Below the pieces are notes generated by a model. It did not search any database. It saw only the letters and a list, made by a program, of their open reading frames with translations, and was not told where the DNA came from. A stretch of DNA of 44,060 nt, taken from assembly GCF_001428545.1 (NCBI RefSeq), contig NZ_LMHZ01000030.1, forward strand, positions 1-44,060, written 5' to 3'. This DNA is from Noviherbaspirillum sp. Root189. GTDB taxonomy: Bacteria > Pseudomonadota > Gammaproteobacteria > Burkholderiales > Burkholderiaceae_D. Below are positions 11,617 to 36,510 of the stretch, piece by piece (the first letter of the stretch is position 1; every line of letters begins with the position of its first letter). Made by a program: the position numbers and the translations under genes.

Positions 11617-11632
11617 TGCAAGTTCCATTCCA
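11617..11632 (-). promoter_or_regulatory. Candidate sigma-54 promoter for the EthD-like/thiolase unit
   Basis: The minus strand reads TGGAATGGAACTTGCA: a perfect TTGCA -12 element and the required GG-N10-GC spacing, but a weak -24 (TGGAATG against TGGCACG). It lies 61 bp before the 11555 start. Confidence 0.4.
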
Positions 11633-11772
11633 TTCTCTAACGGCGCGATACAGGTGGCTGCGTGTCCTTTCAATGGGCTTACCTTGCCAATAGTGTCTTT
11701 GCAAAAGTCACTCGTTTGTACGCGGAAAAAGCATGGGAAGCAGGCTTTGGCCGGCGTATCAATGCATTTGTT

Positions 11773-11788
11773 GGGCACATAGTTTGCT
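11773..11788 (+). promoter_or_regulatory. Candidate sigma-54 promoter upstream of the MFS gene
   Basis: GGGCACATAGTTTGCT: one mismatch to TGGCAC-N5-TTGCW, with correct GG-N10-GC spacing. It is about 270 bp before the MFS start, so the leader would be long. Apart from this site and the divergent one at 11617, the 11556-12060 gap shows no gene. Confidence 0.5.
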
Positions 11789-12060
11789 TTCGGCAGACTG
11801 CTGAAAAAACGACTGCACGACCCTGGCGCCTGCGATGCGCATCATACCATTCGTCTAATCGCGCTTCCCGGAACTAATCCGGGCCTGCTCGCTATAGAAG
11901 AAAGACAAGAAGGCTGTTCAGGGCTTGTACTGCGGCGCGTCGGGCACCTTGGATTGCGTCTCGGTATAGCCACGAAGTTGCACCACTTATTCCTGTACGG
12001 ACCATCAGTGTTAGTTCCGTAACCTCCATTTTATTTTGCCCTGACTGGACGCGCACCGAT

Positions 12061-13290
12061 ATGTCATCTCGATACTCCCGCTACGCTAGCGATAAGAGAT
12101 TGTCTGGCCCCTGCTTGCTGTCGATGCTATTGCTAATCCTGGCCACCGGCGGATTCTGCGCCGGGGTTTCCATGCGCGTGATGGATCCCATGCTGCCTTT
12201 TCTCAGTAGAGAATTCAATGTATCCCTGAGCGAGGCCGGGCAGACGATTACCTACTTTTCCATGGCTTATGCAGTCAGCTTGCTTTTCATCGGTATGGTG
12301 GGCGACCGCTACGGAAAGCTCCGTGTAGTGGGCTGGGCGTGCGTTATGTGCTCGATAACTACTTTTGCCTGTGCAGTTGCGCCAGACTTTTTGTCTCTGC
12401 GAGCCGCCCGGCTGCTTTGTGGAGCGGCAAGCAGTGCGGTAATGACCTTGGGCATGGCTTGGGTAGGCGACACGATACCCTATGAGCGGAGACAGTCGAC
12501 GCTGTCCCGGCTGTTGATCGGGATGTCGCTCGGCGTCGCGGTCGGCGCCGCCGTCGGGGGATTCGCCGCAGACCAGACGATTAGCTGGAGATCGGTTTTC
12601 GGAACTATTGCCGCTTGTTTCCTGCTGGTTGGCCTAGCGCTGTTGTTAATGTTGCGCTGGGCGGTGCCGCAAGCTCTCCAGCCGCAGGCCATGTCCGCCA
12701 CCCGTGAGCATGTGGTGGATGGCGAGTTGAGGAGCGGAGCTATGTGTTTGATATTGTTTGTTTCGTTTTTTGAAGGAGCCCTGTACCTCGCGGCCTTGGC
12801 TTTCGTTCCTTCTCATCTGCATGCCCGATACGGCATCTCACTCAGTATGTCTGGCTCCATTGCGATGCTCGCAGGTCTGGGAGGCTTGTTTTATGCGCTA
12901 TGCGCCGGGAAGCTGGTCAATCTCGGAGAGCGTCGGCTCATTACCATCGGCGGCGTCCTGATGGTGGCTTCATTCCTGGTGGTCGGATTTTCTCCTGCCT
13001 GGCAAATGGCCCTGCCGGCATGCTTTTGCGTGGGATTAGGTTTTTACATGCTGCACAGCACACTGCAGACGCGCGCCACCCAGATTGCACCGGAGCAGCG
13101 AGGCACGGCGATGGCGGCCTTTTCTGCGTGCTTTTTCTTTGGCCAGTCGGTTGGCGTCTCGTTGTTTGGCCGGTTCATCGAGCAAGTGAACTCTTCGGTG
13201 GTCATGGCAACGGCCGCAATTGGCCTACTGGCCGTTACAGTGTTGCTTGCTGCCCGCGTAAAGGTCCGGCAGGCATCACGCAATTTGTAG
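12061..13290 (+). CDS. MFS transporter
   Basis: 409 residues with about twelve hydrophobic segments. The first helix is at ~19-36, and the MFS loop 2-3 motif follows as GMVGDRYGKLRVVG. Other helices include MTLGMAWVGDTIPYERRQST, AACFLLVGLALLLML, LILFVSFFEGALYLAAL, and FSACFFFGQSVGVSLFG near the C-terminus. It would sit in the inner membrane and move a small solute, probably an acid substrate or a product for export; direction and solute cannot be read. The ATG has no obvious Shine-Dalgarno sequence. Divergent from the EthD-like/thiolase unit. Confidence 0.88.
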   Translation: MSSRYSRYASDKRLSGPCLLSMLLLILATGGFCAGVSMRVMDPMLPFLSREFNVSLSEAGQTITYFSMAYAVSLLFIGMVGDRYGKLRVVGWACVMCSITTFACAVAPDFLSLRAARLLCGAASSAVMTLGMAWVGDTIPYERRQSTLSRLLIGMSLGVAVGAAVGGFAADQTISWRSVFGTIAACFLLVGLALLLMLRWAVPQALQPQAMSATREHVVDGELRSGAMCLILFVSFFEGALYLAALAFVPSHLHARYGISLSMSGSIAMLAGLGGLFYALCAGKLVNLGERRLITIGGVLMVASFLVVGFSPAWQMALPACFCVGLGFYMLHSTLQTRATQIAPEQRGTAMAAFSACFFFGQSVGVSLFGRFIEQVNSSVVMATAAIGLLAVTVLLAARVKVRQASRNL

Positions 13291-13506
13291 TGTCTTCGCT
13301 GTTATCAGCGCTACTGTCTTTCATAAATGCACTCCCGTTCTCTCGGGGTGTAGATGGAGCCGTGTCAGCCCGGTTTATTCTGTGCATAGACGTGCCTCCG
13401 GACGCTCGCCCACCACAGAAAAACACATAAATTCAAGAGCTTATCTATGCGTTTCCGCGCAAGACCAGCCTTGCTGGCCAGTGTTGCGCGTTCGGCGTCC
13501 GTCAAC

Positions 13507-13522
13507 TGGCATGTAGCTTGCT
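13507..13522 (+). promoter_or_regulatory. Sigma-54 promoter for the 13565-17344 operon
   Basis: TGGCATGTAGCTTGCT matches TGGCAYR-N4-TTGCW with exact GG-N10-GC spacing. The predicted start point is near 13533, giving a leader of about 30 nt before the ATG at 13565. The rest of the 13291-13564 gap holds no gene. Confidence 0.75.
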
Positions 13523-13564
13523 CAACTGCCTCCATCGCGAATCCTCCTTTTCAACAGAAGACAA

Positions 13565-14329
13565 ATGTATATGGACACTTCAGAAGTCTTGCTCCACAAA
13601 GATGGCGGCATAGCGACCATCACGCTTTCACGCCCTGACAAACTGAACGCGCTTTCGACATCCATGCGGAACAGTCTGGGTGAATGCTTGGCCAACGTCG
13701 CCGAGGATCAGGAGGTGAAAGTAGTAGTGCTGCGCGGCGAGGGGCGAGCCTTCTGCGCCGGTGCAGATCTGGTCGACGCACCTAAGACGCCTTTGGCATG
13801 GCGTGATCGCATTCTGACGGCGCAGTCGCACCATATGACGATCGCAATGATGCGCAAGCCGGTGATCGCGGCGGTGCAGGGCGCGGCGGTTGGTGGCGGT
13901 GCGTCGCTAGCCCTGGCAGCCGACATTCGGATCATGGCGGACGATGCCAAGTTGGTGTTCCCGTTTGTGCGCTTGGGCATTGTGCCCGACGGCGGCGCTT
14001 CATTTTTACTTCAGGCCAAGCTGCACGCCGGTATCGCGCTCGATTTGCTGCTCACTGGAGGCACGCTGACCGCCGCCGAGGCGGAGCGGCTCGGACTAAC
14101 GCGTCGCGTTGTGTCCGCCGAGCAGCTTGATCAAACAAGCCAGACCTTGGCCAGGGATCTGCTTAACCTGCCTTGGGAGGCCTTGATGCTAACCAAGGCA
14201 TTGTGCGCGCAGCAATGGGCGCAAGGCTTGCAGCGCGCGTTGAGCCACGAAGCGGATGCCTTCGCATTGGCGACGACAACTGAAGGACACAAGGCGGCAT
14301 TGGCCGAAATACTGAAGAAATTTAAATAA
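13565..14329 (+). CDS. Crotonase-family protein, PaaG/enoyl-CoA isomerase-like
   Basis: 254 residues with the crotonase fold: RPDKLNALSTSMR, the oxyanion-hole region GEGRAFCAGADLVD, and AAVGGGASLALAADIRIM. Both Glu of true enoyl-CoA hydratases are absent (GGGASLA instead of GGGxELA, and VFPFVRLG instead of the PEI motif). An Asp follows in GIVPDGGASF, as in PaaG-type ring isomerases and Delta3-Delta2 enoyl-CoA isomerases. I therefore favour double-bond isomerisation over hydration. First gene of the 13565-17344 operon, just below a sigma-54 promoter. A second in-frame ATG is at 13571. Confidence 0.85.
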   Translation: MYMDTSEVLLHKDGGIATITLSRPDKLNALSTSMRNSLGECLANVAEDQEVKVVVLRGEGRAFCAGADLVDAPKTPLAWRDRILTAQSHHMTIAMMRKPVIAAVQGAAVGGGASLALAADIRIMADDAKLVFPFVRLGIVPDGGASFLLQAKLHAGIALDLLLTGGTLTAAEAERLGLTRRVVSAEQLDQTSQTLARDLLNLPWEALMLTKALCAQQWAQGLQRALSHEADAFALATTTEGHKAALAEILKKFK

Positions 14330-14348
14330 ATAACGGGAGGAGATTAAG

Positions 14349-15128
14349 ATGTTCAAGGCAGACACGCTCGAAGGCAGGGTGGCGTTCATCACTGGCGGCG
14401 CGAGCGGAATCGGCATGGAGATCGCCGAGATGTATGGCCGCCTCGGCGCCACGGTGATGCTGGCAAGCCGCAATCAGGAACGGTTGGATGCCGCCGTATC
14501 CATCATGGCGGGCCAGGGTATCAAGGTGGCTGCCACTCGTACCGACGTGCGAGATTATGACGACGTCAAGAGCGCCATCGACAAAACAGTGAAGCAATTT
14601 GGTGCGCTCGATATTCTGGTCAACAACGCGGCTGGCAATTTCCACTGCCCGACGGCCGAACTGTCGCCCAACGGGTGGCGCACCGTAATCGACATCGATT
14701 TGAACGGTACCTTCTATGGATGCCATGCCGCCTACGAACATCTGAAACGCTCGTCCTTCGGCGGATCCATCATCAGCATCATTACCATGCTCGGCGTGAG
14801 TGGTTGGCCGGGGGCGGCCCATGCCGCTGCCGCGAAGTCCGGCATCCTGGCGCTGTCAAGGACGCTGGCGGTGGAGTGGGGTGAGGACAATATCCGTGTC
14901 AACACAATTTCCCCCGGCCCTATCGGCGACACCGAAGGAGTGCGGCGCATGTACCAGGAAACCGGGCGCGAAGAGCTGGAGCGCAAAAAGACGGCGCTGG
15001 GACACCTGGGGCGCAAAGCCGACATCGCCAATGCCGCCGTTTATCTCGCATCAGATCTGGCTTCCTATGTTACCGGGGAAAACATGGTCGTCGATGGCGG
15101 GCGCTGGCTGAAATACGTTGCTGCCTGA
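14349..15128 (+). CDS. SDR-family oxidoreductase, 2,4-dienoyl-CoA reductase-like
   Basis: 259 residues. NADP-binding motif FITGGASGIGMEIAEM at ~residue 14, and the dienoyl-CoA-reductase-like stretch NNAAGNFHCPTAELSPNGW. The usual YxxxK active site is replaced by HAAAAK, then SGILALSRTLAVEWG and SPGPIGDTEG. Loss of that Tyr with the NNAAGNF block is typical of 2,4-dienoyl-CoA reductases of the SDR class, which remove a double bond from unsaturated acyl-CoAs with NADPH. GGGAGG lies upstream of the ATG; 19 nt after the crotonase gene. Confidence 0.83.
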   Translation: MFKADTLEGRVAFITGGASGIGMEIAEMYGRLGATVMLASRNQERLDAAVSIMAGQGIKVAATRTDVRDYDDVKSAIDKTVKQFGALDILVNNAAGNFHCPTAELSPNGWRTVIDIDLNGTFYGCHAAYEHLKRSSFGGSIISIITMLGVSGWPGAAHAAAAKSGILALSRTLAVEWGEDNIRVNTISPGPIGDTEGVRRMYQETGREELERKKTALGHLGRKADIANAAVYLASDLASYVTGENMVVDGGRWLKYVAA

Positions 15129-15212
15129 GATCGTGCACGGGCCGAATCATCTACATTTGAACCCGGGTTTCGAGGCAATGAGCGAACGCTGACCCTTTTT
15201 TGGAGGCATAAC

Positions 15213-16355
15213 ATGAGTTTTACACCGACTGAAGATCAAAAAATGCTGCGCGAGGCGATTGAGCGCCTCGTCCAATCCGAATGCACGCCGTCAAAAGTGC
15301 GTCAATGGGACCGCGACGGTGTCTTCCCCGAAGACGTGTATGCTAAGATGGCAGAGGCCGGTTTCGTGTCGATGGTTGTCCCAGCCGAATACGGCGGCAT
15401 CGGCAGCCCGATGTCCGATTGCATCATCCTTTTCGAGGAAGTGGCCAGGCCCGCCGTTGACTTCGCCACACGCATCGGACTCCAGGGATGGGGCGCAATG
15501 ATCCTGGCGGATTTCGCGGAAGAAGAACTCAAGCGCGAGATCTTGCCGCGCGTGGCCAAGGGCGAGCTTAAGCTTTCGTTCAGTCTCACGGAACCGCAGT
15601 CCGGCTCCGACGCCGCTGCGCTTACTACCAGCGCACGGCGGGACGGCGATGATTGGGTGCTCCGGGGCCAGAAGGTGTTTTCCAGCGGCGCGCATGCGCC
15701 AGACAACATGATTGTCGTTGCAGCCCGTACCGCGAAGGGCAAGACCAGGCACGAAGGCATCTCGCTGTTCCTGGTACCGAACGACTTGCCGGGCCTGACG
15801 ATCCGTCGGCTCGACGTCATCGGGCGCCGTGTGCTCGGACTGACGGAAATTTTCTTCGACGATGTCAGGATCCCAGGGCATTACCTGATTGGCGAAGAAG
15901 GAAAAGGCTGGGGCTATGTCGGACGCCACTTGGAGCGCGAACGCATCACCTTGGCGGCGAATTACCTCGGCAGCGCGCGCAGCGCACTAGACGAAGCACT
16001 GGCGTATGCCAAGGAAAGGCAGCAGTTCGGACGACGGATCGGTGAATTTCAAGTCATAGCGCACATGTTGGCGGACATGGCGACCGAAATCGAGGCCGCA
16101 CGCTGGATGACAGCAATGGCAGCCTGGCGCTATGACAGTGGCCTCCCTTGCCGCAAGGAGGCCAGCATGGCCAAGCTGTTTGTCTCCGAGATGCTGCAGC
16201 GCGTGACGGCAGCCGGCATGCAGATCCTAGGCGGCCATGCCTACACTACCGATCACGACATGCAGCGCCATTGGCGCGATGGGCGCAATGCGACGGTGGG
16301 CGGCGGCACCTCCCAGATCCAGCGGCAGCTTATCGCCAGAGAGTTGGGACTATGA
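15213..16355 (+). CDS. Acyl-CoA dehydrogenase
   Basis: 380 residues, full length: an N-terminal helical domain, then FAD/substrate motifs LSFSLTEPQSGSDAAALTTS and WVLRGQKVFSSGAH, then QFGRRIGEFQVIAHMLADMA. The usual C-terminal YEGT catalytic Glu position reads VGGGTSQ, with Gly instead. HLERERITLAA has a Glu where isovaleryl-CoA and long-chain dehydrogenases keep their base, suggesting a branched or bulky substrate. Introduces an alpha,beta double bond using FAD; electrons go to ETF. TGGAGG precedes the start. It overlaps the next gene by 4 nt (ATGA), so the two are translationally coupled. Confidence 0.92.
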   Translation: MSFTPTEDQKMLREAIERLVQSECTPSKVRQWDRDGVFPEDVYAKMAEAGFVSMVVPAEYGGIGSPMSDCIILFEEVARPAVDFATRIGLQGWGAMILADFAEEELKREILPRVAKGELKLSFSLTEPQSGSDAAALTTSARRDGDDWVLRGQKVFSSGAHAPDNMIVVAARTAKGKTRHEGISLFLVPNDLPGLTIRRLDVIGRRVLGLTEIFFDDVRIPGHYLIGEEGKGWGYVGRHLERERITLAANYLGSARSALDEALAYAKERQQFGRRIGEFQVIAHMLADMATEIEAARWMTAMAAWRYDSGLPCRKEASMAKLFVSEMLQRVTAAGMQILGGHAYTTDHDMQRHWRDGRNATVGGGTSQIQRQLIARELGL

Positions 16356-17344
16356 GTACGGCGTCGATGCACATACCGCCCATGGACAGGATCGAGACCC
16401 GAGCAACCCATGCGCTCAACATCCGCTATCCGATCGTCCAGGGCGGATTGGCGCGCATTGCCAAGGCTGAGCTTGCGGCAGCAGTGTCCAACGCCGGCGG
16501 CATGGGGCAGATCGCTGTGGCAGGCCTGTCCGACCCTGATGTGCTGCGTGCCGAAATTCGCAAGGCCAAGCGCCTGACGCAAGCGCCGTTCGGGGTTAAT
16601 TTTCCCATTGGGCACCTGAAGATCGATGCTTTACTCGATCTGACGATTGAAGAAGGCGTGACAGCAGTATCCTTCACGGGCGGCAATCCTCAGCCATATA
16701 TCCGGCGGCTTGAAGGCACGGACACTCGAGTGATGGTGCTCGTCTCCGGGCCAGAGCAGGCACAGAAAGCCGAACAGGCAGGGGCGCATGTCGTGGCAAC
16801 GGTCGGTTATGAAGGAGGAGGTCATATCGGGCGTTCAGACCTGACGACCATCGTGGCGATCCCGCTTGTCGTACGCGCCGTCGGAATACCGGTCCTTGCC
16901 GGCGGAGGCATTGCCGACGGCGCAGGCCTCGCGGCCGCACTCGCGCTCGGTGCAGACGGTGTCGAAATCGGCACACGATTCATCGCGGTGAAAGAGGCCT
17001 TTGCCCATGACAATTACAAAGACGCGGTCGTTCGCGCGAATGCGTCGGACACTGTCGTCGTTAAGCGTTCGCTTGGGACGCCGGGCAGGGCATTGGCCAA
17101 TGCGTGGACAGAACGTATTCTATCCGCGGAAGCAGAGGGGCAGTCGCGCGAGGCGATTTTCGAGATGGTGAAAGCCGACGCGAACGAGCGCGGTGTCTTC
17201 GGTGGAGATATGGAGAGCAGCCTTGTGTGGGTAGGCCAGGCTGCCGCCATGGTGGACGACGTGCCAAGCGCAGGAGAGTATGTCGAGAGAATGGTTGCCG
17301 AGGCCAAGGCCGCAGGCAAGAGGCTTGCAAGACTGCTTGGGTAG
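16352..17344 (+). CDS. Nitronate monooxygenase / 2-nitropropane dioxygenase-family flavoprotein
   Basis: 330 residues from the ATG that overlaps the previous stop; an open frame runs farther upstream but lies inside the dehydrogenase gene. FMN-dependent TIM barrel motifs are clear: IRYPIVQGGLARIAKAELAA, AVSNAGGMGQIAVAG, VATVGYEGGGHIGRSD with the family GGHxGR, VLAGGGIADGAGLAAAL and GADGVEIGTRFIAVKEAF. Members oxidise nitronates, but many in CoA-ester operons have no known nitro substrate and may act as enoyl reductases or other flavoenzymes. The tight coupling with an acyl-CoA dehydrogenase favours a CoA-ester role; that is inference. Confidence 0.88.
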   Translation: MSTASMHIPPMDRIETRATHALNIRYPIVQGGLARIAKAELAAAVSNAGGMGQIAVAGLSDPDVLRAEIRKAKRLTQAPFGVNFPIGHLKIDALLDLTIEEGVTAVSFTGGNPQPYIRRLEGTDTRVMVLVSGPEQAQKAEQAGAHVVATVGYEGGGHIGRSDLTTIVAIPLVVRAVGIPVLAGGGIADGAGLAAALALGADGVEIGTRFIAVKEAFAHDNYKDAVVRANASDTVVVKRSLGTPGRALANAWTERILSAEAEGQSREAIFEMVKADANERGVFGGDMESSLVWVGQAAAMVDDVPSAGEYVERMVAEAKAAGKRLARLLG

Positions 17345-17537
17345 TATTTTTGAATCAGTGGTAGGACCATAGGCAGGAGAGCCGGGTCGCAGACATGGCA
17401 CCCTGCCGACACTGTTTTTTGTGCAGACACCAAACAAAGCGTATGCAACAACGACACTCTATGCCGCTGTGTACGTAACGCATCCACGGTCTTGATCGAG
17501 AAGCCGCTTGAAACCAAGGCTTTTCACATGTTTGCGC

Positions 17538-17553
17538 TGGCACGTCGATTGCA
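17538..17553 (+). promoter_or_regulatory. Sigma-54 promoter upstream of the 17701 CoA transferase
   Basis: TGGCACGTCGATTGCA is a perfect match to TGGCACG-N4-TTGCW. The predicted start point is near 17564, about 137 nt before the ATG at 17701. The rest of the 17345-17700 gap shows no gene. Confidence 0.82.
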
Positions 17554-17700
17554 TTGCCTTTACCGAGGCAAATTTCGATCTGAGCCATTGCCGCTTCGGC
17601 GCTCGCATTACTTCGAAGATTTATGGAATTAAACGAGCGGCGATGAGCATTGACTTTCGAGTTTGATTACAACCTAACTTCAATCATTCATATATTCGCT

Positions 17701-18888
17701 ATGCCTGGTCCGTTATCTGGAATTAAAGTTATCGATCTCACTTCGGTCGTGATGGGCCCCTATGCAACCCGGATCTTCGGGGACATGGGGGCGGAAGTCA
17801 TTAAGGTGGAAAGCCCGGATGGTGACATCATGCGCCACATGGGCGCTGCGCAAAGGCCGACGATGGGACCGATCCATGTGTCGGTGAACCGCAACAAAAA
17901 GAGCTTGATGCTCGACCTGCGCCAGGAGGCTGCACGATCAGCGCTGCTTCGCGTGGTGCGTGATGCCGATGTATTCGTGCATGCGATGCGCCCGGATGCA
18001 ATTGAAAGGCTTGGCCTCGGTTACGACGTGATTCGGGAGGTCCGCCCGGATATCGTTTACTGTGGCGCCTATGGATTCGGCAAGGCGGGCCCCTATGCAC
18101 AGGATCCGGCTTACGACGACATGATTCAAGGTGTTTGCGGAATGGCATCAATCAACCGGCATCTCGCGGGGGAGCCACGGTTTACGCCGACAATCTTGGG
18201 CGACAAGGTCGCCGGTTTGACCATTGCACACAGCGTGCTGGCTGCATTATTCCACCGCTTACGGACCGGCGAAGGGCAATTCTTGGAAGTGCCGATGTTC
18301 GAGACGCTGGTTTCTTTCATAATGGTCGAGCACCTCTGGGAGCGGGCCTTTGATCCTGTAAATGGCGTAGCCGGCTATCCGCGCGTGATGAGCCAGTTGC
18401 GAAAGCCCCATCGCACCAGCGACGGATACGTTTGTGTTCTTCCCTATACGGACCGCAACTGGCGTGACTTTTTTGAACTTGCCAAGCGGCCGGATCTTGC
18501 CGCCGATCTCAGGTATGCAACGGCCACCTCGCGTAGTTCGAACTATGAAACCCTGTACGCCGTTCTGGGCGAAATCATGGCGCAGCAATCCACCGAATTC
18601 TGGCTGACGCATTGCAAGCCGTTAAGCATTCCGATCGCTCCGGTCAATAGTCTCGAGGACCTGTTCACCGATCCGCACCTGCGCGCTGTGGGTACATTTT
18701 TTCAGGCCGAGCATCCCGATCTCGGCGCCATCACGCAAGTTAAGAGCCCGGTGACTTTCAGCCAAACCCCAAACGAGGTGCGAACCCTTGCACCCAAGTT
18801 GGGGGAGCACAGCAGAGAGGTGCTCTCGGGCGCGGGCTTGTCCGACGAAGAGATTAATGCTCTAGTGGCCCGCGGTGCCACACTTTGA
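17701..18888 (+). CDS. CaiB/BaiF family (class III) CoA transferase
   Basis: 395 residues from the ATG at 17701 (MPGPLSGIKVIDLTSVVMGP); a TTG 51 nt upstream is in frame but adds a non-family leader. Family motifs: GPYATRIFGDMGAEVIKVES, VNRNKKSLMLDLR, GFGKAGPYAQDPAYDDMIQG with the catalytic Asp, and LEVPMFETLVSFIM. These enzymes move CoA between a donor acyl-CoA and a carboxylic acid without ATP. Transcribed from its own sigma-54 promoter and followed 120 bp later by a Bug gene, which suggests uptake or sensing and activation of the same acid. Confidence 0.92.
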   Translation: MPGPLSGIKVIDLTSVVMGPYATRIFGDMGAEVIKVESPDGDIMRHMGAAQRPTMGPIHVSVNRNKKSLMLDLRQEAARSALLRVVRDADVFVHAMRPDAIERLGLGYDVIREVRPDIVYCGAYGFGKAGPYAQDPAYDDMIQGVCGMASINRHLAGEPRFTPTILGDKVAGLTIAHSVLAALFHRLRTGEGQFLEVPMFETLVSFIMVEHLWERAFDPVNGVAGYPRVMSQLRKPHRTSDGYVCVLPYTDRNWRDFFELAKRPDLAADLRYATATSRSSNYETLYAVLGEIMAQQSTEFWLTHCKPLSIPIAPVNSLEDLFTDPHLRAVGTFFQAEHPDLGAITQVKSPVTFSQTPNEVRTLAPKLGEHSREVLSGAGLSDEEINALVARGATL

Positions 18889-19008
18889 TATTTTAGACGA
18901 AGCACCGGGTTTGGTTTTGGCGTCAACATTCATATTGAAAATCGAGTGTGTAGTGAAACTAGCCGCCGGAATTCAGTTTCACATTTTTTTTAAAACAGTG
19001 AGAAAATA

Positions 19009-19995
19009 ATGAACATAAGAACATTAAAAAAAGCGATTGGTACAGCCTTGCTCTGCCTTTCGTGCGTTATGCCTTTCGGCGCTGCCGCGGCAAGCGATTA
19101 TCCGATCCGTCCCATTCGATTGGTCTGCCCTTATGCTGCGGGTGGATTGACCGACGTGCTCGCCAGGGTATTGGCAAAGCGATTGTCGGAGCGCATCGGA
19201 CAGCCCGTGGTTGTGGAAAATCGCACCGGTGCAGGCGGCATTATCGGCGTCGATGCAGTGGCCAAATCGCCGGCGGACGGTTACACCATCGTACTAGTCG
19301 CGCAAGGGCTGGCAAGTGTGAATGCAAGCCTGCACAAAAACCTCCCTTATGACACCTTGCGTGACTTCGCGCCGATATCACTGGTTTCGACGTTCTCGCT
19401 GGTCTTTGTGGGCAATCCTGAACTGCCGCCCAAATCGATGGAAGAATTCATCGCGACGGCGCGTGCGAAGCCCGGTAAATTGGATTACGGATCTGCGGGC
19501 AATGCCTCGACCTCGCATCTGATGACCGAATTGCTGAAAGATCAAGTCGGCATTGATGTCGTTCACATTCCCTTCCGTGGAGAATCGGCTGCGTTTACCG
19601 AATTGATGGGAGGGCGCTTGACCGGCATGTTTGCCACTCTCGGCGGCGCATTGCCGTCCATCCAGTCGGGCAAGCTCCGCGCCCTTGCTGTGGCGACAAA
19701 GGAACGAAACAGCCTGCTTCCGAATGTTCCGACGGTCTCGGAGTCCGGCGTACCGGGATTTGAAGTCTTAGGATGGTACGGAATCCTGGCACCGATCAAT
19801 GTGCCAAAACACATTCGTGATCGTCTCAGCAAGGAATTCATGGCCATGGCCAAGGAGCCGGAAATGCGTCAGATGCTGGCGTCTCGCGGTATGGATTCGG
19901 TTGGCAGCTCGCCAGAAGCGTTCAGCAAAATGATCAAGTCCGAGACGGAACGCTGGCGCCAAGTGGTAACCAAAGCAAAGATTCAGGCAGACTGA
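19009..19995 (+). CDS. Bug-family (TctC-like) periplasmic solute-binding protein
   Basis: 328 residues with a signal peptide (ALLCLSCVMPFGAAAAS). Then SDYPIRPIRLVCPYAAGGLTD, VAKSPADGYTIVLVAQG, LPYDTLRDFAPISLVSTF and APINVPKHIRDRLSKEF. Binds a carboxylate in the periplasm. There is no TctA/TctB gene here. GTGAGAAAATAATG gives only a weak ribosome-binding site. Probably co-transcribed with the preceding CoA transferase. Confidence 0.92.
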   Translation: MNIRTLKKAIGTALLCLSCVMPFGAAAASDYPIRPIRLVCPYAAGGLTDVLARVLAKRLSERIGQPVVVENRTGAGGIIGVDAVAKSPADGYTIVLVAQGLASVNASLHKNLPYDTLRDFAPISLVSTFSLVFVGNPELPPKSMEEFIATARAKPGKLDYGSAGNASTSHLMTELLKDQVGIDVVHIPFRGESAAFTELMGGRLTGMFATLGGALPSIQSGKLRALAVATKERNSLLPNVPTVSESGVPGFEVLGWYGILAPINVPKHIRDRLSKEFMAMAKEPEMRQMLASRGMDSVGSSPEAFSKMIKSETERWRQVVTKAKIQAD

Positions 19996-20170
19996 AAAGG
20001 AACTTCCTTGACATTGCCTGCCGGCGTAGAAAAACGCTCCGGCCAGGCTGTCTCACCAGAGACCAGGGCTAGCTCCTTGGCCAGCTTGGCGATCGTGGGT
20101 GTTATTACCAGCACCCACGCATTGTAGTCCTGTAAAAGTTGATTTCGGCAAGGCGCAGGAGGAGCTAATA

Positions 20171-20201
20171 GCGGTGCTATTGACGACGAGTGCAGCACCG
20201 C
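20171..20201. repeat. Inverted repeat (GCGGTGCT...AGCACCGC)
   Basis: Perfect 8-bp stem with a 15-nt loop in the non-coding stretch between the Bug gene and the IS5 remnant. No T-run follows. It could be a degraded IS end, a REP-type element or part of a terminator. Confidence 0.35.
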
Positions 20202-20239
20202 CAGACGGAAAAAGATACGATTTCATCTTACGTATTGGT

Positions 20240-24152: not shown

Positions 24153-24809
24153 TCAGGCGCTCTTCTTCTGGGCGCGCATCTTCGCTACGCGTGCCCGGCG
24201 AGCGGGTGCATAGGGCGTCTCACCCAGAGCTTCGAACAGGGCGCTTGTCACGTCAAAGTGATGCTCAATTCCGGTCCGCTCAAGCAGCGCAATCGGTCCC
24301 TCCGGGTAGCCAAGTCCCAGGCGCAAAGTGAGGTCGAGGTCGTCCGCGGTGGCCAGACCCTCGTCCAAGCGGCGTAATGCGGCATTGTAGTAGGGGCGTA
24401 CCAGGCGGTCGATGATACGGCCGGTAACGTCGAAACATACCGCGACCTTGAGTCCCGCGCCTTCTAGCACCTGTTTCGCAGCGTTAATGGTGGACTGCGG
24501 AGTATTGGGCTGGCGTACCAGCTCAACCAAATTTGACGGCTCCGCGTCGCCGAGGCGGAAGCGGTTAAAACCGAGTACGTTTGATCCTTCGTTGCCGCGG
24601 CTTTCGCCGGTATGTACGCCGAGGGATTCGTTTCCGAGTTCAATCAGGATCGCTGCTTTCTTATCGGCGCCTTGTATTTTCGCCTGAGCGTCGCCCGCCT
24701 GTTGTCCGAGCAGGATGACGACCTCGCCATCTGCTGCCGTGCCTTGTAACAGGGCGTGCGGTGTCGGGAAGGAACGGCTGTTTCCGGTATCAATGATGGA
24801 ATAGTTCAT
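24153..24809 (-). CDS. 3-hydroxyacyl-CoA dehydrogenase paralog lacking the NAD-binding motif
   Basis: 218 residues. The C-terminal half has the 3HCDH helical domain: AVCFDVTGRIIDRLVRPYYN, AALRRLDEGLATADDLDLTL and LGLGYPEGPIALLERTG. The N-terminal half has no GxGxxG Rossmann loop and no HFFNP catalytic His region; it keeps only LGFNRFRLGDAEPSNLVELV, which parallels the strand after that site. It is intact, tightly packed (3 nt after the Hbd gene, 1 nt before the racemase-like gene) and therefore not obvious debris. It may be a partner subunit, a substrate-binding domain, or an enzyme on a different chemistry. Confidence 0.7.
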   Translation of the reverse strand: MNYSIIDTGNSRSFPTPHALLQGTAADGEVVILLGQQAGDAQAKIQGADKKAAILIELGNESLGVHTGESRGNEGSNVLGFNRFRLGDAEPSNLVELVRQPNTPQSTINAAKQVLEGAGLKVAVCFDVTGRIIDRLVRPYYNAALRRLDEGLATADDLDLTLRLGLGYPEGPIALLERTGIEHHFDVTSALFEALGETPYAPARRARVAKMRAQKKSA

Positions 24810-25688: not shown

Positions 25689-25695
25689 TAAGTCC

Positions 25696-26862: not shown

Positions 26863-26885
26863 GTGCTTGCCTTTCTAACGAAATT

Positions 26886-27626: not shown

Positions 27627-27630
27627 GGGC

Positions 27631-28398: not shown

Positions 28399-28420
28399 TT
28401 TCAGGTCTCCTTTGGTTTCA

Positions 28421-30079: not shown

Positions 30080-30092
30080 GGCGTGGTCGGCT

Positions 30093-30878: not shown

Positions 30879-30918
30879 CGGTGATCTCCTTGTCGTCGAA
30901 TTGAGGATTAAGTATGTA

Positions 30919-32151
30919 TTACTGTGCAGGCTTACCCGCGAGCGCTGCGAGTCTGGTGTCGTCCCAGTCGAGCCAGGTCTTAAATACTTTCATGGTGTCC
31001 TCGCCAAGGCGCGGCGGGGCCGACCGGCAGGCGTGGCTATTGCCGTCGAAGCGTATGCCGAGGCCAATCTGTGGGATGGCGAAGCCGTTGCGTTCGAGTG
31101 AAAAAAACAACCCGCGTTCCTGCATGGCCGGGTCCTGCACAACTTCATCGAGACGGTTGATCGGACCGGCTGGTACACGAGACTTGGCAAAAAGCGCAAG
31201 CCAATGGCTGCGAGGTTTAGTGCGGAGTGCTTTCTGGATTTCTTCCACGATTTCCGGCCGGTGACGGCGTCGTCCCTCGTTATTCGCCAAGCGCGGGTCG
31301 GCCGCCATATCCTGACGCCCGATGGCGTTGCAGAAGCGGATCCAAATGCCGTCATTGCCGAGGCCCAGAGTCAACGGGGCATCTTCGGCGTCGAAGGTCT
31401 GATAGATCGCGATCACGCTGTCCTTGCCTCCGGCGCGGCGCGGCAGCTCACCCGAGCCAAGGAACGGAATGATGCGCGGCGTGAGGAAGCGTGTCATGCT
31501 TTCGACCATCGAGACGTCGATTTCCTGGCCGAACCCGGTGCGGTTGCGCGCAATGATTGCAGCCAGCGTGGCCAAGGCCGCATCCTGTCCCGCCAGAAGA
31601 TCCGCCGCCGGCGTGCCGACTTTCTGCGGATCGCCGTCTGCTTCACCCGTTAGGTCCATGACACCGCTATAGCCCTCGGCGATCAGGTCATAGCAAGGCA
31701 GGTCGGCGTTCGGGCCGCTCAAGCCAAATCCTGTGATGGAAACATGGATTAAGCGAGGGTTAACCGCCTTGAGCGTTTCGTAGTCGATGCCAAGTTTCTT
31801 CTGGCTGCGCAGTACCTGGTTCGTGAGCATGACGTCCGCCTTGGAAACCAGCGCTCGCAACGTCTCTCGGCCGGCGGGCTGCGAAGTGTCGAGAGTGACA
31901 CTCTGCTTGTTGCGGTTCACGCTCAGGAACCACAGGGACTCGCCGTCGAGGAAAGGAGGTCCCCAGGCGCGCGCGTCATCCCCCTGTTCCGGCCGCTCGA
32001 TCTTGGCGACTTCGGCACCTAAGTCCGCCAGCAGCAGGCCCGCATAAGGGCCCGCCACCGATGTTGTCATATCCAGTACACGAATACCTTCGAGAAGATT
32101 GATCGCTTGAGAAGGCAGTGGCGGAGAGCGCATGTTATCAGCAGGGACCAT
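30919..32151 (-). CDS. CaiB/BaiF family (class III) CoA transferase
   Basis: 410 residues. LLEGIRVLDMTTSVAGPYAG, LLLADLGAEVAKIERPEQGD, SVNRNKQSVTLDTSQPAG, GFGLSGPNADLPCYDLIAEG with the catalytic Asp, and IDVSMVESMTRFL. First gene of the ten-gene operon; a perfect sigma-54 promoter ends about 40 nt upstream of the start. An ATG at 32133 is an alternative start; neither has a strong Shine-Dalgarno. It probably recycles CoA from a pathway product onto the incoming acid, in parallel with the ATP-dependent ligase. Confidence 0.92.
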   Translation of the reverse strand: MVPADNMRSPPLPSQAINLLEGIRVLDMTTSVAGPYAGLLLADLGAEVAKIERPEQGDDARAWGPPFLDGESLWFLSVNRNKQSVTLDTSQPAGRETLRALVSKADVMLTNQVLRSQKKLGIDYETLKAVNPRLIHVSITGFGLSGPNADLPCYDLIAEGYSGVMDLTGEADGDPQKVGTPAADLLAGQDAALATLAAIIARNRTGFGQEIDVSMVESMTRFLTPRIIPFLGSGELPRRAGGKDSVIAIYQTFDAEDAPLTLGLGNDGIWIRFCNAIGRQDMAADPRLANNEGRRRHRPEIVEEIQKALRTKPRSHWLALFAKSRVPAGPINRLDEVVQDPAMQERGLFFSLERNGFAIPQIGLGIRFDGNSHACRSAPPRLGEDTMKVFKTWLDWDDTRLAALAGKPAQ

Positions 32152-32189
32152 GAGGAAAGCAGTTCAAAAGTTGTAGGTAATCTCGCAAT

Positions 32190-32205
32190 AGCAACGTCTG
32201 TGCCA
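32190..32205 (-). promoter_or_regulatory. Sigma-54 promoter of the ten-gene operon
   Basis: The minus strand reads TGGCACAGACGTTGCT, a full match to TGGCAC-N5-TTGCW with exact GG-N10-GC spacing. The predicted start is near 32179, 28 nt before the ATG at 32151. Confidence 0.85.
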
Positions 32206-32273
32206 CTGGCGCTCAGTCATGCCCTACCTTCTCCAAACCCTGCCGCAAGCTTGTATTTACGTGGCTAGGCGGA

Positions 32274-32289
32274 GCGTGTCCGGGCACGC
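32274..32289. promoter_or_regulatory. Possible activator-binding palindrome upstream of the 32205 promoter
   Basis: GCGTGTCCGGGCACGC is a 16-bp palindrome with one mismatched pair, about 70 bp upstream of the -24 element, a plausible distance for an enhancer site. GCGTGTCC recurs as a half-site at 11660-11667, upstream of the 11773 candidate. No clear copy was found before the other sigma-54 sites. The rest of the 32152-32534 gap shows no gene. Confidence 0.3.
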
Positions 32290-32534
32290 GGCGATCAGAT
32301 CAAGCTCCTGGAGGAGTACAGTTGTCTACGTCGAAGACAGTGCTTGGAGGCAGTTTGCTCGTGGCGAAGGCAGTACGAGAACGGGATGGTGAAAAAACGA
32401 CGGCGGACTGCAGGCGGAGAGGATGTATGCGCCGGCTTTACTTATGGAATGGAATTTGCGTTTCATTTGCTGCAGCGGTGTATGCGCCGTTGACGCCCTT
32501 CCCATTAACAACTACAAAACAAATGGAGACGATG

Positions 32535-33743
32535 ATGAAACTTCATTCTAAGTCGGCAACCCTTCTGATTGCGCTTTCCGTTCTACCGTTGTTCGCCTTC
32601 GCTCAAGTTTCTGACAATGAGGTAAAAATCGGTGTCATGGTTGACAAGACTGGGGTCTACTCCGCTAACGGCGGACCAGGCGCAGTCAGGGCAGTCGAGA
32701 TGGCAGTCCAAGATTTCGGCGGCAAGGTCCATGGCAAGCCGATTCAGGTATTGAGTGCCGATTACCAGAACAAGGTCGATATTGCCGCCACTAAGGGCCG
32801 GGAGTGGTTCGACCGTGAGCAAGTTGATATGATCATTGAGTCGACCGATTCGGCCGCGGCAATCGCACTGCAAAAACTAGGTGCTGAGAAGAAGAAAGTT
32901 ATGATTTTCGCCGGCTCGGCCTCCACGGCGCTTACCAACAACGAGTGTTCTCCTTACGGAATCCACTATGTATACGACACCTATGCGCTGGCGACAGGAA
33001 CCGGCCGCGCAGTGATGCAGGAGGGCGGAGATAGCTGGTATTTCATTACGGCCGACTACGCGTTCGGCAGCTCCTTGGAAAAGGATACCACCAAGGTTAT
33101 ACAAAAGATGGGCGGCAAAGTCCACGGCACGCGCAGGCATCCGCTGAACGCGACTGACTTTTCTTCCTTCCTTTTGCAGGCTCAGACATCCAAGGCAAAG
33201 ATTATCGGGCTGGCCAATGCCGGCAAGGATACGCAGAACGCGGTACGGCAGGCAGCGGAGTTCGGCGTCGGGCGCTCCGGCCAAAAACTGGCGACGCTGC
33301 TGGTATTCGATACCGACATCAAAGGCATGGGGCTGAATATCTCCCAGAACCTCCTGTTCACCACGGGCTTCTATTGGGATTACAACGATGAGACACGCAA
33401 TTGGTCGAAACGGTTCTACGCCGTCCACGGGGCGATGCCAACAATGATTCAGGCGGGGGCATATTCCGCAACCATGCATTACCTCAAGGCCATCCAGTCT
33501 GCCGGAACGGACAACGCCGACGCCGTAACCAAAAAGATGAAAGAGACCGAAATCAACGACTTCTTCGCCAAGGGTGGAAAGATTAGGGCAAACGGCCGAA
33601 TGGTGCATGACATGTATCTGGCCGAAGTCAAGACGCCCGCCGAGTCGAAAGGCGAATGGGACATTGTCAGGATCAAGAGGGTCATTTCAGGCGAGCAGGC
33701 GTTTCAGCCGCTATCTGAAAACACTTGTTTTCTCGGTAAATAA
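32535..33743 (+). CDS. ABC transporter substrate-binding protein (branched-chain amino acid/urea type)
   Basis: 402 residues from the ATG at 32535, chosen because GGAG sits 6 nt upstream and a clear signal peptide follows (SATLLIALSVLPLFAFA). Peripla_BP_6 features: VKIGVMVDKTGVYSANGGPG, GRAVMQEGGDSWYFITADYA and FGSSLEKDTTKVIQKMGGKV. Such proteins deliver amino acids, urea, amides or aromatic and alicyclic acids to a LivHMGF-type permease; no permease or ATPase gene is present. Divergent from the ten-gene operon and directly before the sigma-54 activator, so it may feed or sense the pathway substrate. Confidence 0.9.
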   Translation: MKLHSKSATLLIALSVLPLFAFAQVSDNEVKIGVMVDKTGVYSANGGPGAVRAVEMAVQDFGGKVHGKPIQVLSADYQNKVDIAATKGREWFDREQVDMIIESTDSAAAIALQKLGAEKKKVMIFAGSASTALTNNECSPYGIHYVYDTYALATGTGRAVMQEGGDSWYFITADYAFGSSLEKDTTKVIQKMGGKVHGTRRHPLNATDFSSFLLQAQTSKAKIIGLANAGKDTQNAVRQAAEFGVGRSGQKLATLLVFDTDIKGMGLNISQNLLFTTGFYWDYNDETRNWSKRFYAVHGAMPTMIQAGAYSATMHYLKAIQSAGTDNADAVTKKMKETEINDFFAKGGKIRANGRMVHDMYLAEVKTPAESKGEWDIVRIKRVISGEQAFQPLSENTCFLGK

Positions 33744-33905
33744 GGTGGTGAGGAACAGGCATGGCCGTATGGTGCGGTTTGGAGTCCTGCTCCTTCCACA
33801 CTCACTACGCATAACCATCGTCCGGTAGCTGTGTCGGCCCCATGATATAAGTGTATTCTTGGAAGACACCGCAGATTTCCCATACTTATAAGACGGATAA
33901 TAGAT

Positions 33906-35570
33906 ATGATGGTAAATGAGACAGGCCGTTTCGGAATTCTGATAATAGACACCAACGATATCGTGGTGTACGCCGGCGGTTGCGCCGATAGCATCAAGAT
34001 TCGGCACAAGCTTCTGGAAGGCCTGGATGAAAAGCGCGCGCAAGGCAGCGGGATGATAGCGCTGGAACTTGGAAGGCAGATGGTTGTGACGTATCGCGCA
34101 ATGGCAGATGCGATGGTCTTTTTCATCCAGCCGGTTGAAGAGAAGTCGGCGCTCTTCGATTTGATTACCTGCGTTGATTTCGCGCACGCCATCTTTACCT
34201 ATCTGGTTGAAAACCCCTATTTTTCGATGATCGTAGCGGATGAGCAATCGCGGCTCAAATTTATTCCCCCAGTACATGAGAAGTTTTTCGGATTCAAGCG
34301 CGGGGAAGGAATAGGGAAGCACGTCACGGAAGTGATTGAGAACACCCGGCTGCATGAGGTCGTGCAGAGCGGCCGTGCGGAGATCGGCAAGCTGCAGGAA
34401 ATGGGTGGAGTGACTCGCGTCGTTTCCCGCATTCCCATCACGCAAAACGGCAAGACTGTCGGGGCGATTGGCCAGGTCATGTTCAAGGAACCGGAGACTG
34501 TTCACAATCTCTCACGTGAAGTGACCAAGTTGCGTTCGGAAGTCCAATTCTACCGGCAAGAAATGTCAGGCATGAAGAAGAGCTCCTTTGATTTGGAACA
34601 GATGGTGGGCGACAGCGAAGCGATGCGACAACTCAAGTCGGACATCATCAAGGTGGCGCCGCTCCATGTCCCGGTGTTGATTGTCGGCGAGAGCGGCACA
34701 GGGAAGGAACTGGCCGCGCACGCAATTCATGCGTTAAGCCTGCGCAGCAAGAACCGAATGATTTTTGTCAACGCAGCAGCACTTCCGGGCGGGCTTGTCG
34801 AAAGCGAATTGTTCGGATACGAGTCCGGCGCATTCACGGGGGCAGAGAAAGCCGGCCGCAAAGGCAAGTTCGAACTGGCTGACAACAGCTCATTGTTCTT
34901 CGACGAGGTCGGCGACATGCCGGCTGAAATTCAGGTAAAGCTGCTGCGTGTCCTGCAGGATGGCATGTTTGAGCGTGTCGGCGGCAACCGGGTCTTTCAT
35001 TCGGACTTCCGTCTTATCTGCGCCAGTAACTGTAACTTCCAGGAGATGATAGGCAACGGACAGTTCCGACTCGACCTTTATTATCGAATCAGCGGTGTGA
35101 CCATTCGCATGCCGAGCTTGCGTGAGCGCCTTGAGGACGTCCCGGAGCTCGTGCAAAGCATCCTGGTTTCATTCGCCAACCGTCATCGAACGTCGGTAAA
35201 GCGCGTTGATGGTCGTGTCTATGACTTTTTGCGAGAGCAGTCGTGGCCCGGGAATGTCCGGCAGCTCTTGCATGAAGTGGAGAAAGCAGCCATCTTCTGC
35301 GACGGTCCCGAAATCACCATCGAGAATTTTCGCCTTATGAGCGACATCCCGCTGGAGAGAGCGTCTTCCTCCGAGGCGCCCGTTCCAGTCAATGCTTCAA
35401 ACGGCACAGCTGCGCCTTCTTCGACGCGAACGATCCAAGACGCCATCAATGAGCTGGAAAAAAACATGATTCGAGAAGCCATGAGCAGGCATCGCGGAAA
35501 CAAAAAGAAGGCGGCGGAGGAACTGGGGATCTCGCGTGCCTATCTCTACAAGAAGCTCGATCCGGAATAG
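33906..35570 (+). CDS. Sigma-54-dependent transcriptional activator (PAS, AAA+, Fis-type HTH)
   Basis: 554 residues. N-terminal signal-sensing part with a PAS-like domain at ~95-205 (NPYFSMIVADEQSRLKFIPP), a coiled linker (VTKLRSEVQFYRQEM), then the AAA+ domain: Walker A GESGTGKE at ~260, GAFTGA at ~308 for sigma-54 contact, Walker B SSLFFDEVGDMP at ~330, and WPGNVRQLLHEVEKA. The C-terminal Fis helix-turn-helix is at ~510-554 (HRGNKKKAAEELGISRAYLY). All parts needed to open sigma-54 promoters are present. It is encoded between the operons that carry matching promoters, so it is the obvious candidate activator. The ligand of the PAS part is unknown. Confidence 0.95.
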   Translation: MMVNETGRFGILIIDTNDIVVYAGGCADSIKIRHKLLEGLDEKRAQGSGMIALELGRQMVVTYRAMADAMVFFIQPVEEKSALFDLITCVDFAHAIFTYLVENPYFSMIVADEQSRLKFIPPVHEKFFGFKRGEGIGKHVTEVIENTRLHEVVQSGRAEIGKLQEMGGVTRVVSRIPITQNGKTVGAIGQVMFKEPETVHNLSREVTKLRSEVQFYRQEMSGMKKSSFDLEQMVGDSEAMRQLKSDIIKVAPLHVPVLIVGESGTGKELAAHAIHALSLRSKNRMIFVNAAALPGGLVESELFGYESGAFTGAEKAGRKGKFELADNSSLFFDEVGDMPAEIQVKLLRVLQDGMFERVGGNRVFHSDFRLICASNCNFQEMIGNGQFRLDLYYRISGVTIRMPSLRERLEDVPELVQSILVSFANRHRTSVKRVDGRVYDFLREQSWPGNVRQLLHEVEKAAIFCDGPEITIENFRLMSDIPLERASSSEAPVPVNASNGTAAPSSTRTIQDAINELEKNMIREAMSRHRGNKKKAAEELGISRAYLYKKLDPE

Positions 35571-35590
35571 CGGTTGGCTTGCCGCGCTCT

Positions 35591-35626
35591 GCACTTCCCT
35601 CTCCCGCGGGCGGGAGAGGGAAGTGC
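35591..35626. terminator. Strong palindrome after the activator gene
   Basis: GCACTTCCCTCTCCCGC pairs perfectly with 35610-35626 around a 2-nt loop (17-bp stem). No T-run follows, so it is either a rho-assisted terminator or a REP-like repeat. It separates the activator gene from the next sigma-54 promoter. Confidence 0.45.
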
Positions 35627-35780
35627 AAGCTGCCGAATTCAGACATCGCAATCAAAGCGCCTCTCGGTCTCTTCCCCCACAGACACCTATTTTGTCTTGC
35701 CCGCATACAGCTCACATGAATTGAGCGGCTCGACTACCCGAGAACCGCGACAACACGCGCTACAACTTCAGTATTTGTGA

Positions 35781-35796
35781 TGGCATACGACTTGCT
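35781..35796 (+). promoter_or_regulatory. Sigma-54 promoter of the thioesterase gene
   Basis: TGGCATACGACTTGCT matches TGGCAYR-N4-TTGCW with exact GG-N10-GC spacing. The predicted start is near 35807, 27 nt before the ATG at 35834. It overlaps the 5' end of the longest open frame, which starts at 35777; that argues for the later start codon. Confidence 0.78.
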
Positions 35797-35833
35797 CCGT
35801 AGCGGCCTAATGATGACACTCATGGGAGATCGC

Positions 35834-36265
35834 ATGGAAAAAATTAAACAACAATATGAAGTCGGCGGGCGTGAAGGATCCGCTCCTCATTTTAAAGCCC
35901 TGCTTGGTTTCGAGCGCCTGGAATCGCCAGAGGGAAGCGCTATCGTAGAGCTCAAGCTGCGACAGGAACACTGCAATTTCAAAGGTACAGTTCACGGTGG
36001 CGTGGTCATGACGCTGATTGACGTCGCCGGCTACTGGGCAGGCGTAAAAAAAGACGTTTCGGAGCATATCGCCTCCACGGTTTCCATGAATTGCTCCTTC
36101 CTGCGTGGTACCGGCCTTGCGCAGACAACGTCATTGCGAGCCGAAGCTCAAATCACCAAACGCGGCCGATCCATGTACTTTTCAACGATCAAGGTCTACG
36201 CGTGTCCGGGGGGAGAAATGCTGGCATCCGGACAAGGCGTCTTCAGCGTAGCGCAGCCGCGGTAA
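35834..36265 (+). CDS. PaaI-family hotdog thioesterase
   Basis: 143 residues from the ATG at 35834, with GGGAG 5 nt upstream. Upstream in-frame ATGs at 35777 and 35822 are less likely, the first because it lies beside the -24 element of a sigma-54 promoter. Hotdog/PaaI motif: CNFKGTVHGGVVMTLIDVAG with the HGG turn, then YWAGVKKDVSEHIASTVSMN, then AEAQITKRGRSMYFSTIKVY. It hydrolyses acyl-CoA to acid and CoA, likely releasing trapped or dead-end CoA esters of the pathway. Confidence 0.88.
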   Translation: MEKIKQQYEVGGREGSAPHFKALLGFERLESPEGSAIVELKLRQEHCNFKGTVHGGVVMTLIDVAGYWAGVKKDVSEHIASTVSMNCSFLRGTGLAQTTSLRAEAQITKRGRSMYFSTIKVYACPGGEMLASGQGVFSVAQPR

Positions 36266-36494
36266 GGCGAGTGTATCCCGCGCTGCCAATTGCGTATCAG
36301 TTGTATGTGAAGCAGACATCTCAGCTGGCGAAAGACGCTATTCCGCGCAGCTCGGCATACGGCTCCTTGCATCTCGCAGGCGCGTCACCAACTGCTTCAG
36401 TCGGAAAATTGTTTTGACGAATCAATGAGTTGGCGAAGTGCGTTTTGACTCAAGCCATGCTTGGCAAGCCGCATCAACACATTTCTTACCCCAT

Positions 36495-36510
36495 TGGCAT
36501 ATCGATTGCT
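36495..36510 (+). promoter_or_regulatory. Sigma-54 promoter of the 36563-41676 operon
   Basis: TGGCATATCGATTGCT matches TGGCAYR-N4-TTGCW with exact spacing. The predicted start is near 36521, about 42 nt before the ATG at 36563. The remaining part of the 36266-36562 gap shows no gene. Confidence 0.8.

Follow-up and report, generated by a model that had tools for sequence, protein, structure and literature searches.

Sigma-54-type promoters and a shared predicted activator site in a CoA-dependent catabolic island of Noviherbaspirillum sp. Root189

The window examined here is a stretch of 44,060 nucleotides of Noviherbaspirillum sp. Root189 (positions 1 to 44,060 of contig NZ_LMHZ01000030.1, which is contig C30 of its 6.15 Mb genome, G000). 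It carries an island of approximately 30 kb for the CoA-dependent degradation of acids, together with the gene of a predicted sigma-54 activator (33906-35570, plus strand). An earlier note on this DNA had proposed that dispersed sigma-54 promoters place almost the whole catabolic region under one coherent regulon, and the locus raises the question of whether these promoters are read together and by which protein. Eight sigma-54 promoters with a common activator site seem to turn on almost every gene of the island in concert, and the sequence makes it very probable that the island is one regulon, with the PAS-type activator encoded at 33906-35570 driving it through sigma-54.

Sigma-54-type promoters and their common palindrome

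Promoters were sought with the -24/-12 pattern TGGCAYR-N4-TTGCW, a strict class of sites being defined by exact GG-N10-GC spacing. The five exact sites reported in the earlier note are all present (13507+, 17538+, 32190-32205 on the minus strand, 35781+ and 36495+), while 150 first-order Markov simulations of the window gave a mean of 0.08 such sites and a maximum of one. The two weaker sites it placed in the divergent region at 11.6-11.8 kb stand as 11617- and 11773+, each noncoding and with one mismatch. That list of seven was incomplete: an eighth candidate promoter, 32445+, carries two mismatches and is located 87 bp before the likely start of an ABC solute-binding protein (SBP) gene. Noncoding DNA, according to the gene calls used here, makes up 13.4% of the region 9474-41676, and the GG-N10-GC sites touching it number 5/5 at zero mismatches, 2/2 at one, 1/10 at two (32445+) and 3/39 at three. 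Three promoters (11617-, 32445+ and 35781+) fall within the longest open reading frames (ORFs) of their genes (10860-11633, 32322-33743 and 35777-36265, respectively) and were scored as noncoding only with starts set further in (11555, 32532 and 35834); these starts are supported because promoters of relatives occupy corresponding places. The genome scan and coding comparison that had been suggested as a check gave a result in the same direction, with 28 exact sites genome-wide vs six for the reversed pattern, five of the 28 being clustered in the window over less than 23 kb and all five touching noncoding DNA. Loose matching (two mismatches or fewer, GG/GC waived) showed no enrichment of the window (31 found vs 27.2 expected); the signal therefore sits in the strict sites, and these were used. 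A single sigma-54 factor gene was identified in the genome (PF04552 match, 223 bits).

A de novo palindromic search of upstream regions from the window and its relatives converged on AgTGTCTTTnnnAAAGACAcT, with a log-likelihood of 200 at width 17 vs 31-37 in four shuffles. Widths of 17, 19, 21 and 23 returned one dyad and a width of 15 its core, with poor fits at 13, 16, 18 and 20. The main matrix was then derived from 22 promoters of related loci, none of them from the window and two from a paralogous locus on contig C56 of the same genome. Across the 44 kb, the eight best matches to the palindrome, TGTCTTTnnnAAAGACA, are at 33852, 32323, 36302, 17413, 13315, 11694, 15320 and 35693. Seven of these are well placed: six lie 70-185 bp ahead of the eight promoters, two of the six sitting between divergent promoter pairs, and one precedes the activator gene.

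Pairing of promoter and palindrome is rare elsewhere. Seven pairs occur in the window against a simulated mean of 0.007 (32445+, with its two mismatches, is outside this count), and none was found at 37 unrelated activator loci. Among the 15 further activator loci of the genome the only one with a pair is the C56 paralog itself, whereas the pair was identified at 23 of 26 loci of the activator family (training loci included) and at 12 of 14 held-out, more distant loci, the misses being L059 and L111. Of the 28 exact sigma-54 sites in the genome, nine have a motif match of at least 12.9 bits and the remaining 19 score no more than 11.2: five of the nine are in the window, two are at the C56 paralogous locus (in the training set or sharing DNA with it) and two are elsewhere at promoters of CoA-related genes, namely C31:90470 (CaiB-type and TctC-type genes) and C56:275762 (3-hydroxyacyl-CoA dehydrogenase type). 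With the C56 locus and these two further promoters bearing the same signature, the predicted regulon would extend beyond the window.

By itself the palindrome is not enough to delimit the regulon, since its one-mismatch form occurs at 103 places genome-wide vs 84 for a reversed control. Perfect TGTCT-N7-AGACA palindromes number four in the genome. That at C1:368274 was rejected as a member, as it falls inside a long coding frame and no sigma-54 site lies 400 bp or less away. Another (C23:101938, within G000:C23:101765-101954; 11.6 bits) is 181 bp from a one-mismatch sigma-54 site, TGGCATGACAATTGCC, which precedes an SDR-type gene and adjoins the gene of another activator of approximately 35% identity; it is possibly a member of the regulon, or a site of the same class used by the local activator in a sister regulon. 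A 20.4-bit site was also seen near C56:274758 (locus L141, 18759), between 3-hydroxyacyl-CoA dehydrogenase-type and ligase-type genes, with no sigma-54 site of zero or one mismatch in register.

Conservation, helical phasing and the identity of the activator

The protein encoded at 33906-35570 corresponds in its domain content to a sigma-54 enhancer-binding protein. It possesses a PAS fold at residues 83-194 in its N-terminal region, an AAA+ sigma-54 interaction domain (PF00158, 204.5 bits vs a cut-off of 20.2, the lid also being matched) with the GAFTGA loop present in the translation, and a Fis-type DNA-binding domain (PF02954 HTH_8, 50.8 bits vs 22). N-terminal PAS domains also characterise activators of the TyrR and DhaR type. 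As the earlier note had stated, the window encodes no other sigma-54 activator, judging by the proteins that were scanned; in the genome as a whole, PF00158 is matched 16 times above 200 bits and six times weakly, below 28 bits. Its best NCBIfam match is PrdR, an identity that was rejected because the equivalog cut-off was not reached (NF041552, 355.5 bits vs 795), and its closest named relative is from Noviherbaspirillum denitrificans (67%). The core of its helix-turn-helix (HTH), GNKK..AEELGISRAYLYKKL, is nearly constant in close homologues and different in the other activators of the genome that were compared.

Homologues of this activator were sought at two levels: 15 of 392 genomes had one at 1e-100 in the family-level search and nine of 399 at 1e-120 in the order-level search, the genome itself being included in each. 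Promoters and motif recur in relatives from several families. Among the eight new order-level loci, five have the pair, two the promoter only and one neither. In the activator tree, the window activator forms one clade with those of loci G055C48 and G039C6 (99/99), to which an extended gene set is common, and the C56 paralog groups with G141, G162 and G077 (100/100), which have a smaller set. At G039C6 most of the gene set of the window forms a single cluster. Six promoters of this kind occur in it; the upstream activating sequence (UAS) reaches at least 12.5 bits at five, and the SBP promoter has only 7.5 bits. Both G039 (C5 and C6) and G000 (C30 and C56) were seen to have two copies of the ten-gene operon of the island, each with its own activator, at one small and one extended locus.

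Second copies of the motif are helically phased. In 24 of 29 distinct upstream regions the second-best match is 23, 24, 33 or 34 bp from the best, spacings that were picked after an earlier look at second sites, vs a null mean of 1.5 and a maximum of six in 300 (of 35 promoter rows, the six with DNA in common with a divergent neighbour were left out). At 26 held-out promoters (one of 27 dropped as a repeat) the offsets are all 19-22, 30-34, 40-44 or 52 bp; these helical windows, fixed after the offsets were known, thus hold 26 of 26 vs 7.7 expected (sd 2.3, maximum 14 in 400 nulls), and 18 second sites reach at least 5 bits vs 1.4 expected. Orthologous promoters are not independent in any of these statistics. 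Within the window, clear phasing is seen at two places, the pair 11694/11717, 23 bp apart, and the pair 32323/32356, 33 bp apart. The other second sites are of 8.0 bits at 57 bp (17413), 4.9 bits at 30 bp (36302) and 3.4 bits at 59 bp (13315), and no second copy was found at 35693. Tandem sites on the same face of the helix are the trace that would be expected of cooperative binding by an oligomeric activator.

Several observations weigh against a single regulon of this kind. The training loci include orthologs of several window promoters, and matrix matches and pair counts consequently reflect common descent in part. For this reason a class-held-out matrix was made from 16 operon and SBP promoters only; with it, 12 promoters of other classes score 8.5-18.1 bits, the six of these in the window 11.8-18.1, but 13315 drops to 11.8 bits, under a coding-region match at 17194 (12.2), and the MFS promoter of G055C48 and the ECHc promoter of G039C6 score only 8.5 and 10.2 bits, respectively. 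The site at 35693 is modest (12.9 bits), helical second sites are missing at three or four window promoters, and the promoter-motif pair is missing in three of the eight order-level loci. Furthermore, the match at 15320-15336 (14.2 bits) falls within the coding sequence of an acyl-CoA dehydrogenase, lacks a sigma-54 site in register, and may be a chance occurrence or an internal binding site.

The main alternative concerns which activator is responsible: the promoters would be sigma-54 dependent, with the C56 paralog as their main activator or with both proteins acting interchangeably on one merged regulon. The paralog shares 67% identity with the window activator across most of the protein and differs little from it in the HTH core. 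It probably recognises the same sites, and the window sites are read equally well by the matrix, part of whose training came from the paralogous locus. Against this, the adjacent activator travels with the gene set, as seen from the extended set of its clade and the smaller set at the loci with which the paralog groups, and the alternative is considered unlikely, although it survives best. Far less probable is a reading in which the palindrome serves as operator for some other regulator, such as a repressor, and has nothing to do with the sigma-54 activator. A strong site close before the activator gene would suit repression there, but no other regulator is among the NCBIfam matches listed for the 28 genes in 9474-41676 (the gene at 10860 being without a match), the sites are at enhancer distances, the motif travels with the activator family, and TGT-N10-12-ACA is the class reported for many Fis-HTH activators in the accessible part of a Clostridiales survey (PMC6615313). 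That the sites are chance matches in a favourable base composition is barely credible: it would fit the lack of enrichment under loose matching, but strict sites, pairs, conservation and phasing are all far above their nulls.

A regulon driven by the protein encoded at 33906-35570 is therefore preferred. The coherent regulon claimed in the earlier note finds its support in a common palindrome learned without the window, in the conservation of promoter and palindrome among orthologs, in the finding that the pair hardly ever occurs where sigma-54 sites or activator loci are unrelated, and in the helical phasing of tandem motifs. Starting from these features of the DNA and from the protein domains, the following mechanism may be proposed. 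The PAS-type sensor of the one-component activator would respond to a signal that is internal and that probably consists of the substrate or an early CoA thioester, and the activator would bind one or two helically phased TGT-N11-ACA palindromes (TGTCTTTnnnAAAGACA) 70-185 bp upstream of the eight promoters. It would then loop to the waiting sigma-54 polymerase, with ATP hydrolysis opening the promoters. CoA activation (ligase, CoA-transferases), beta-oxidation and ring-cleavage-like enzymes, thiolases and uptake proteins would be induced jointly, and the site before the activator's own gene would probably lead to self-limitation.

It is quite possible, if short of probable, that PAS-type sigma-54 activators of this kind, which occur in several Burkholderiales families and in one record labelled Martelella, make up a broad unnamed family. 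Through a conserved code of helically phased TGT-N11-ACA pairs, its members would govern entire CoA-dependent catabolic islands, the substrates probably being alicyclic or branched acids. Here two paralogous activators would read one code, giving a merged regulon of approximately 13 promoters: eight in the window, three at the C56 paralogous locus, and the single promoters C56:275762 and C31:90470.

Promoters, predicted activator sites and transcription units

The UAS elements described below are predicted sites, scored in bits with the matrix trained without window sequences. At the left of the island, the promoter TGGAATGGAACTTGCA (11617..11632, minus strand) precedes the gene 10860-11555, for which no NCBIfam match was found, and perhaps also serves a gene for a pcaF-type thiolase (9474-10679) that follows after 180 bp. 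It is retained as a TGGAAT variant at the corresponding place in both related loci. The divergent promoter GGGCACATAGTTTGCT (11773..11788, plus strand) precedes the MFS transporter gene 12061-13290 and has the exact consensus at the corresponding place in both G055C48 and G039C6. A UAS at 11694..11710 (15.7 bits) lies midway between the two, 70 bp from 11632- and 71 bp from 11773+, with the weaker second copy at 11717-11733 (11.9 bits).

The promoter TGGCATGTAGCTTGCT (13507..13522, plus strand), with a UAS of 15.9 bits 184 bp upstream (13315..13331), precedes enoyl-CoA hydratase (ECH), SDR, acyl-CoA dehydrogenase and NMO-like genes (13565-17344). It is retained in G055C48 and G039C6; at the G055C48 counterpart of the unit the site precedes an SDR gene, and no ECH match was found there. 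The promoter TGGCACGTCGATTGCA (17538..17553, plus strand), with a UAS of 17.6 bits 117 bp upstream (17413..17429), precedes genes for a CaiB-type CoA-transferase and a TctC-type binding protein (17650-19995), a unit with no close ortholog among the loci compared.

The ten-gene operon extends from 32151 to 21427 behind the promoter TGGCACAGACGTTGCT (32190..32205, minus strand), which is retained in all ten related loci. It encodes a CoA-transferase, a BadI/MenB-like hydrolase, a ligase, an ECH, an SDR, an acyl-CoA dehydrogenase, two proteins of hydroxyacyl-CoA dehydrogenase type, a second CoA-transferase and PaaH. A terminator-like hairpin follows it at 21369-21344, from a scan that showed no overall excess (15 terminators vs 12.6 in shuffles); apart from this hairpin, the operon extents proposed here rest on spacing. 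In the other direction the promoter TGGAATGGAATTTGCG (32445..32460, plus strand) precedes the SBP gene, with its likely start at 32532, and is kept as a TGGAAY variant in all nine related loci, eight with at most one mismatch and G162 with two. A UAS with a perfect TGTCT-N7-AGACA palindrome (32323..32339; 19.8 bits) is common to this divergent pair, and the second copy at 32356-32372 is weak (8.8 bits).

The best matrix match of the window (33852..33868; 20.2 bits) is located 46 bp before the start of the activator gene and is a probable autoregulatory site. A UAS of 14.7-21.4 bits occurs within 200 bp before the activator in all 11 related loci, mostly shared with the promoter of the neighbouring operon. 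Downstream of the activator gene, the promoter TGGCATACGACTTGCT (35781..35796, plus strand; UAS at 35693..35709, 80 bp upstream) precedes a thioesterase gene with its likely start at 35834. The promoter TGGCATATCGATTGCT (36495..36510, plus strand; UAS at 36302..36318, 18.0 bits, 185 bp upstream) precedes ECH, BbsA-like, thiolase, MaoC, acyl-CoA dehydrogenase and TctC-type genes (36563-41676). Both of these promoters are retained in G039C6.

Described systems and the predicted pathway

The likeness of the island to sigma-54 regulons of Clostridiales and Desulfovibrio vulgaris indicates that the mechanism is classical. In the accessible parts of the Clostridiales survey (PMC6615313), 170 of 263 sigma-54 activators control one operon and the others two to six; its regulons, that of PrdR included, likewise involve Fis-HTH activators and inverted TGT/ACA UAS elements 10-12 bp apart, mostly 100-250 bp upstream and often several per promoter. 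The PrdR UAS belongs to the same TGT-N10-12-ACA class, but PrdR controls proline reduction genes, whereas here eight units at one locus are predicted for CoA-dependent acid catabolism. The sigma-54 regulome of D. vulgaris was also obtained by comparative reconstruction and, in what is accessible of that report (PMC4641369), three activators control six, nine and 12 operons but most control one to four, in other organisms and for other functions. The earlier note had called a set of several independent sigma-54 promoters unusual, which holds in part: activators that act on more than one promoter have been described, but with eight units at a single locus the island goes beyond most activators in the two surveys.

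EtpR of Aromatoleum aromaticum EbN1 is similarly a predicted sigma-54 activator of a betaproteobacterial degradation pathway with -12/-24 consensus sites, no such site being reported before etpR, nor found before the window activator gene. It differs in serving the p-ethylphenol pathway as a substrate-binding regulator, and the accessible portion of its description contains no palindrome or UAS term (PMC4630880). The bad-ali pathway for cyclohexane carboxylate in Aromatoleum sp. CIB shares a CoA ligase, dehydrogenases and a BadI ring hydrolase leading to a dicarboxylyl-CoA route; its regulator, according to the accessible text (PMC9795900), is the MarR-type repressor BadR with the operator CAAN4TTG, in contrast to the predicted sigma-54 control and a BadI-like protein below the BadI cut-off in the window. 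No MarR-type regulator is among the NCBIfam matches listed for the 28 genes in 9474-41676, one of which (10860) is without any match. A BadI-like gene set would be under positive sigma-54 control, vs a MarR repressor in the described bad-ali clusters.

No title or abstract on this activator family or its UAS was found in the open-access literature, subscription papers being mostly outside that coverage; within it, the activator family, its UAS and its target set appear undescribed. The outcome is a regulon that can be tested, as its promoters, activator sites and activator are named and unlinked members are predicted. It may offer a handle on an uncharacterised CoA-dependent pathway, because whatever induces the activator should be a guide to the substrate, and two paralogous activators with one DNA code in one cell make a good case for the study of cross-talk after duplication.

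As regards the pathway itself, PaaH (691.7 bits vs a cut-off of 669.4) and the pcaF-type thiolase (727.9 bits vs 597) exceed their NCBIfam cut-offs. The hydrolase was not assigned as BadI (TIGR03210), whose equivalog cut-off was not reached (228.8 bits vs 467.6), nor as MenB, the models of which also scored below their cut-offs (241.4 vs 380 and 214.6 vs 342.7). Together, PaaH, the pcaF-type thiolase and the BadI-like hydrolase suggest that ring opening leads to dicarboxylyl-CoA intermediates. A short gene of the ten-gene operon (24153-24809, minus strand) has only the C-terminal 3-hydroxyacyl-CoA dehydrogenase domain (PF00725, residues 132-216) and is kept in the operon of relatives. The ABC binding-protein gene of the window (within 32445-33743) is without transporter genes alongside. 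At the C56 locus, LivGFHM-type genes, identified by reading of ORFs only, are located behind a divergent sigma-54 promoter with the motif (G000:C56:257683-261200), and none are present in the window; the binding protein may use the transporter encoded there. Just beside the thiolase end of the island, the stretch 6762-9123 (minus strand) contains an IS110-family transposase gene (238 bits vs a cut-off of 140), flanked by apparent fragments of other transposase genes.

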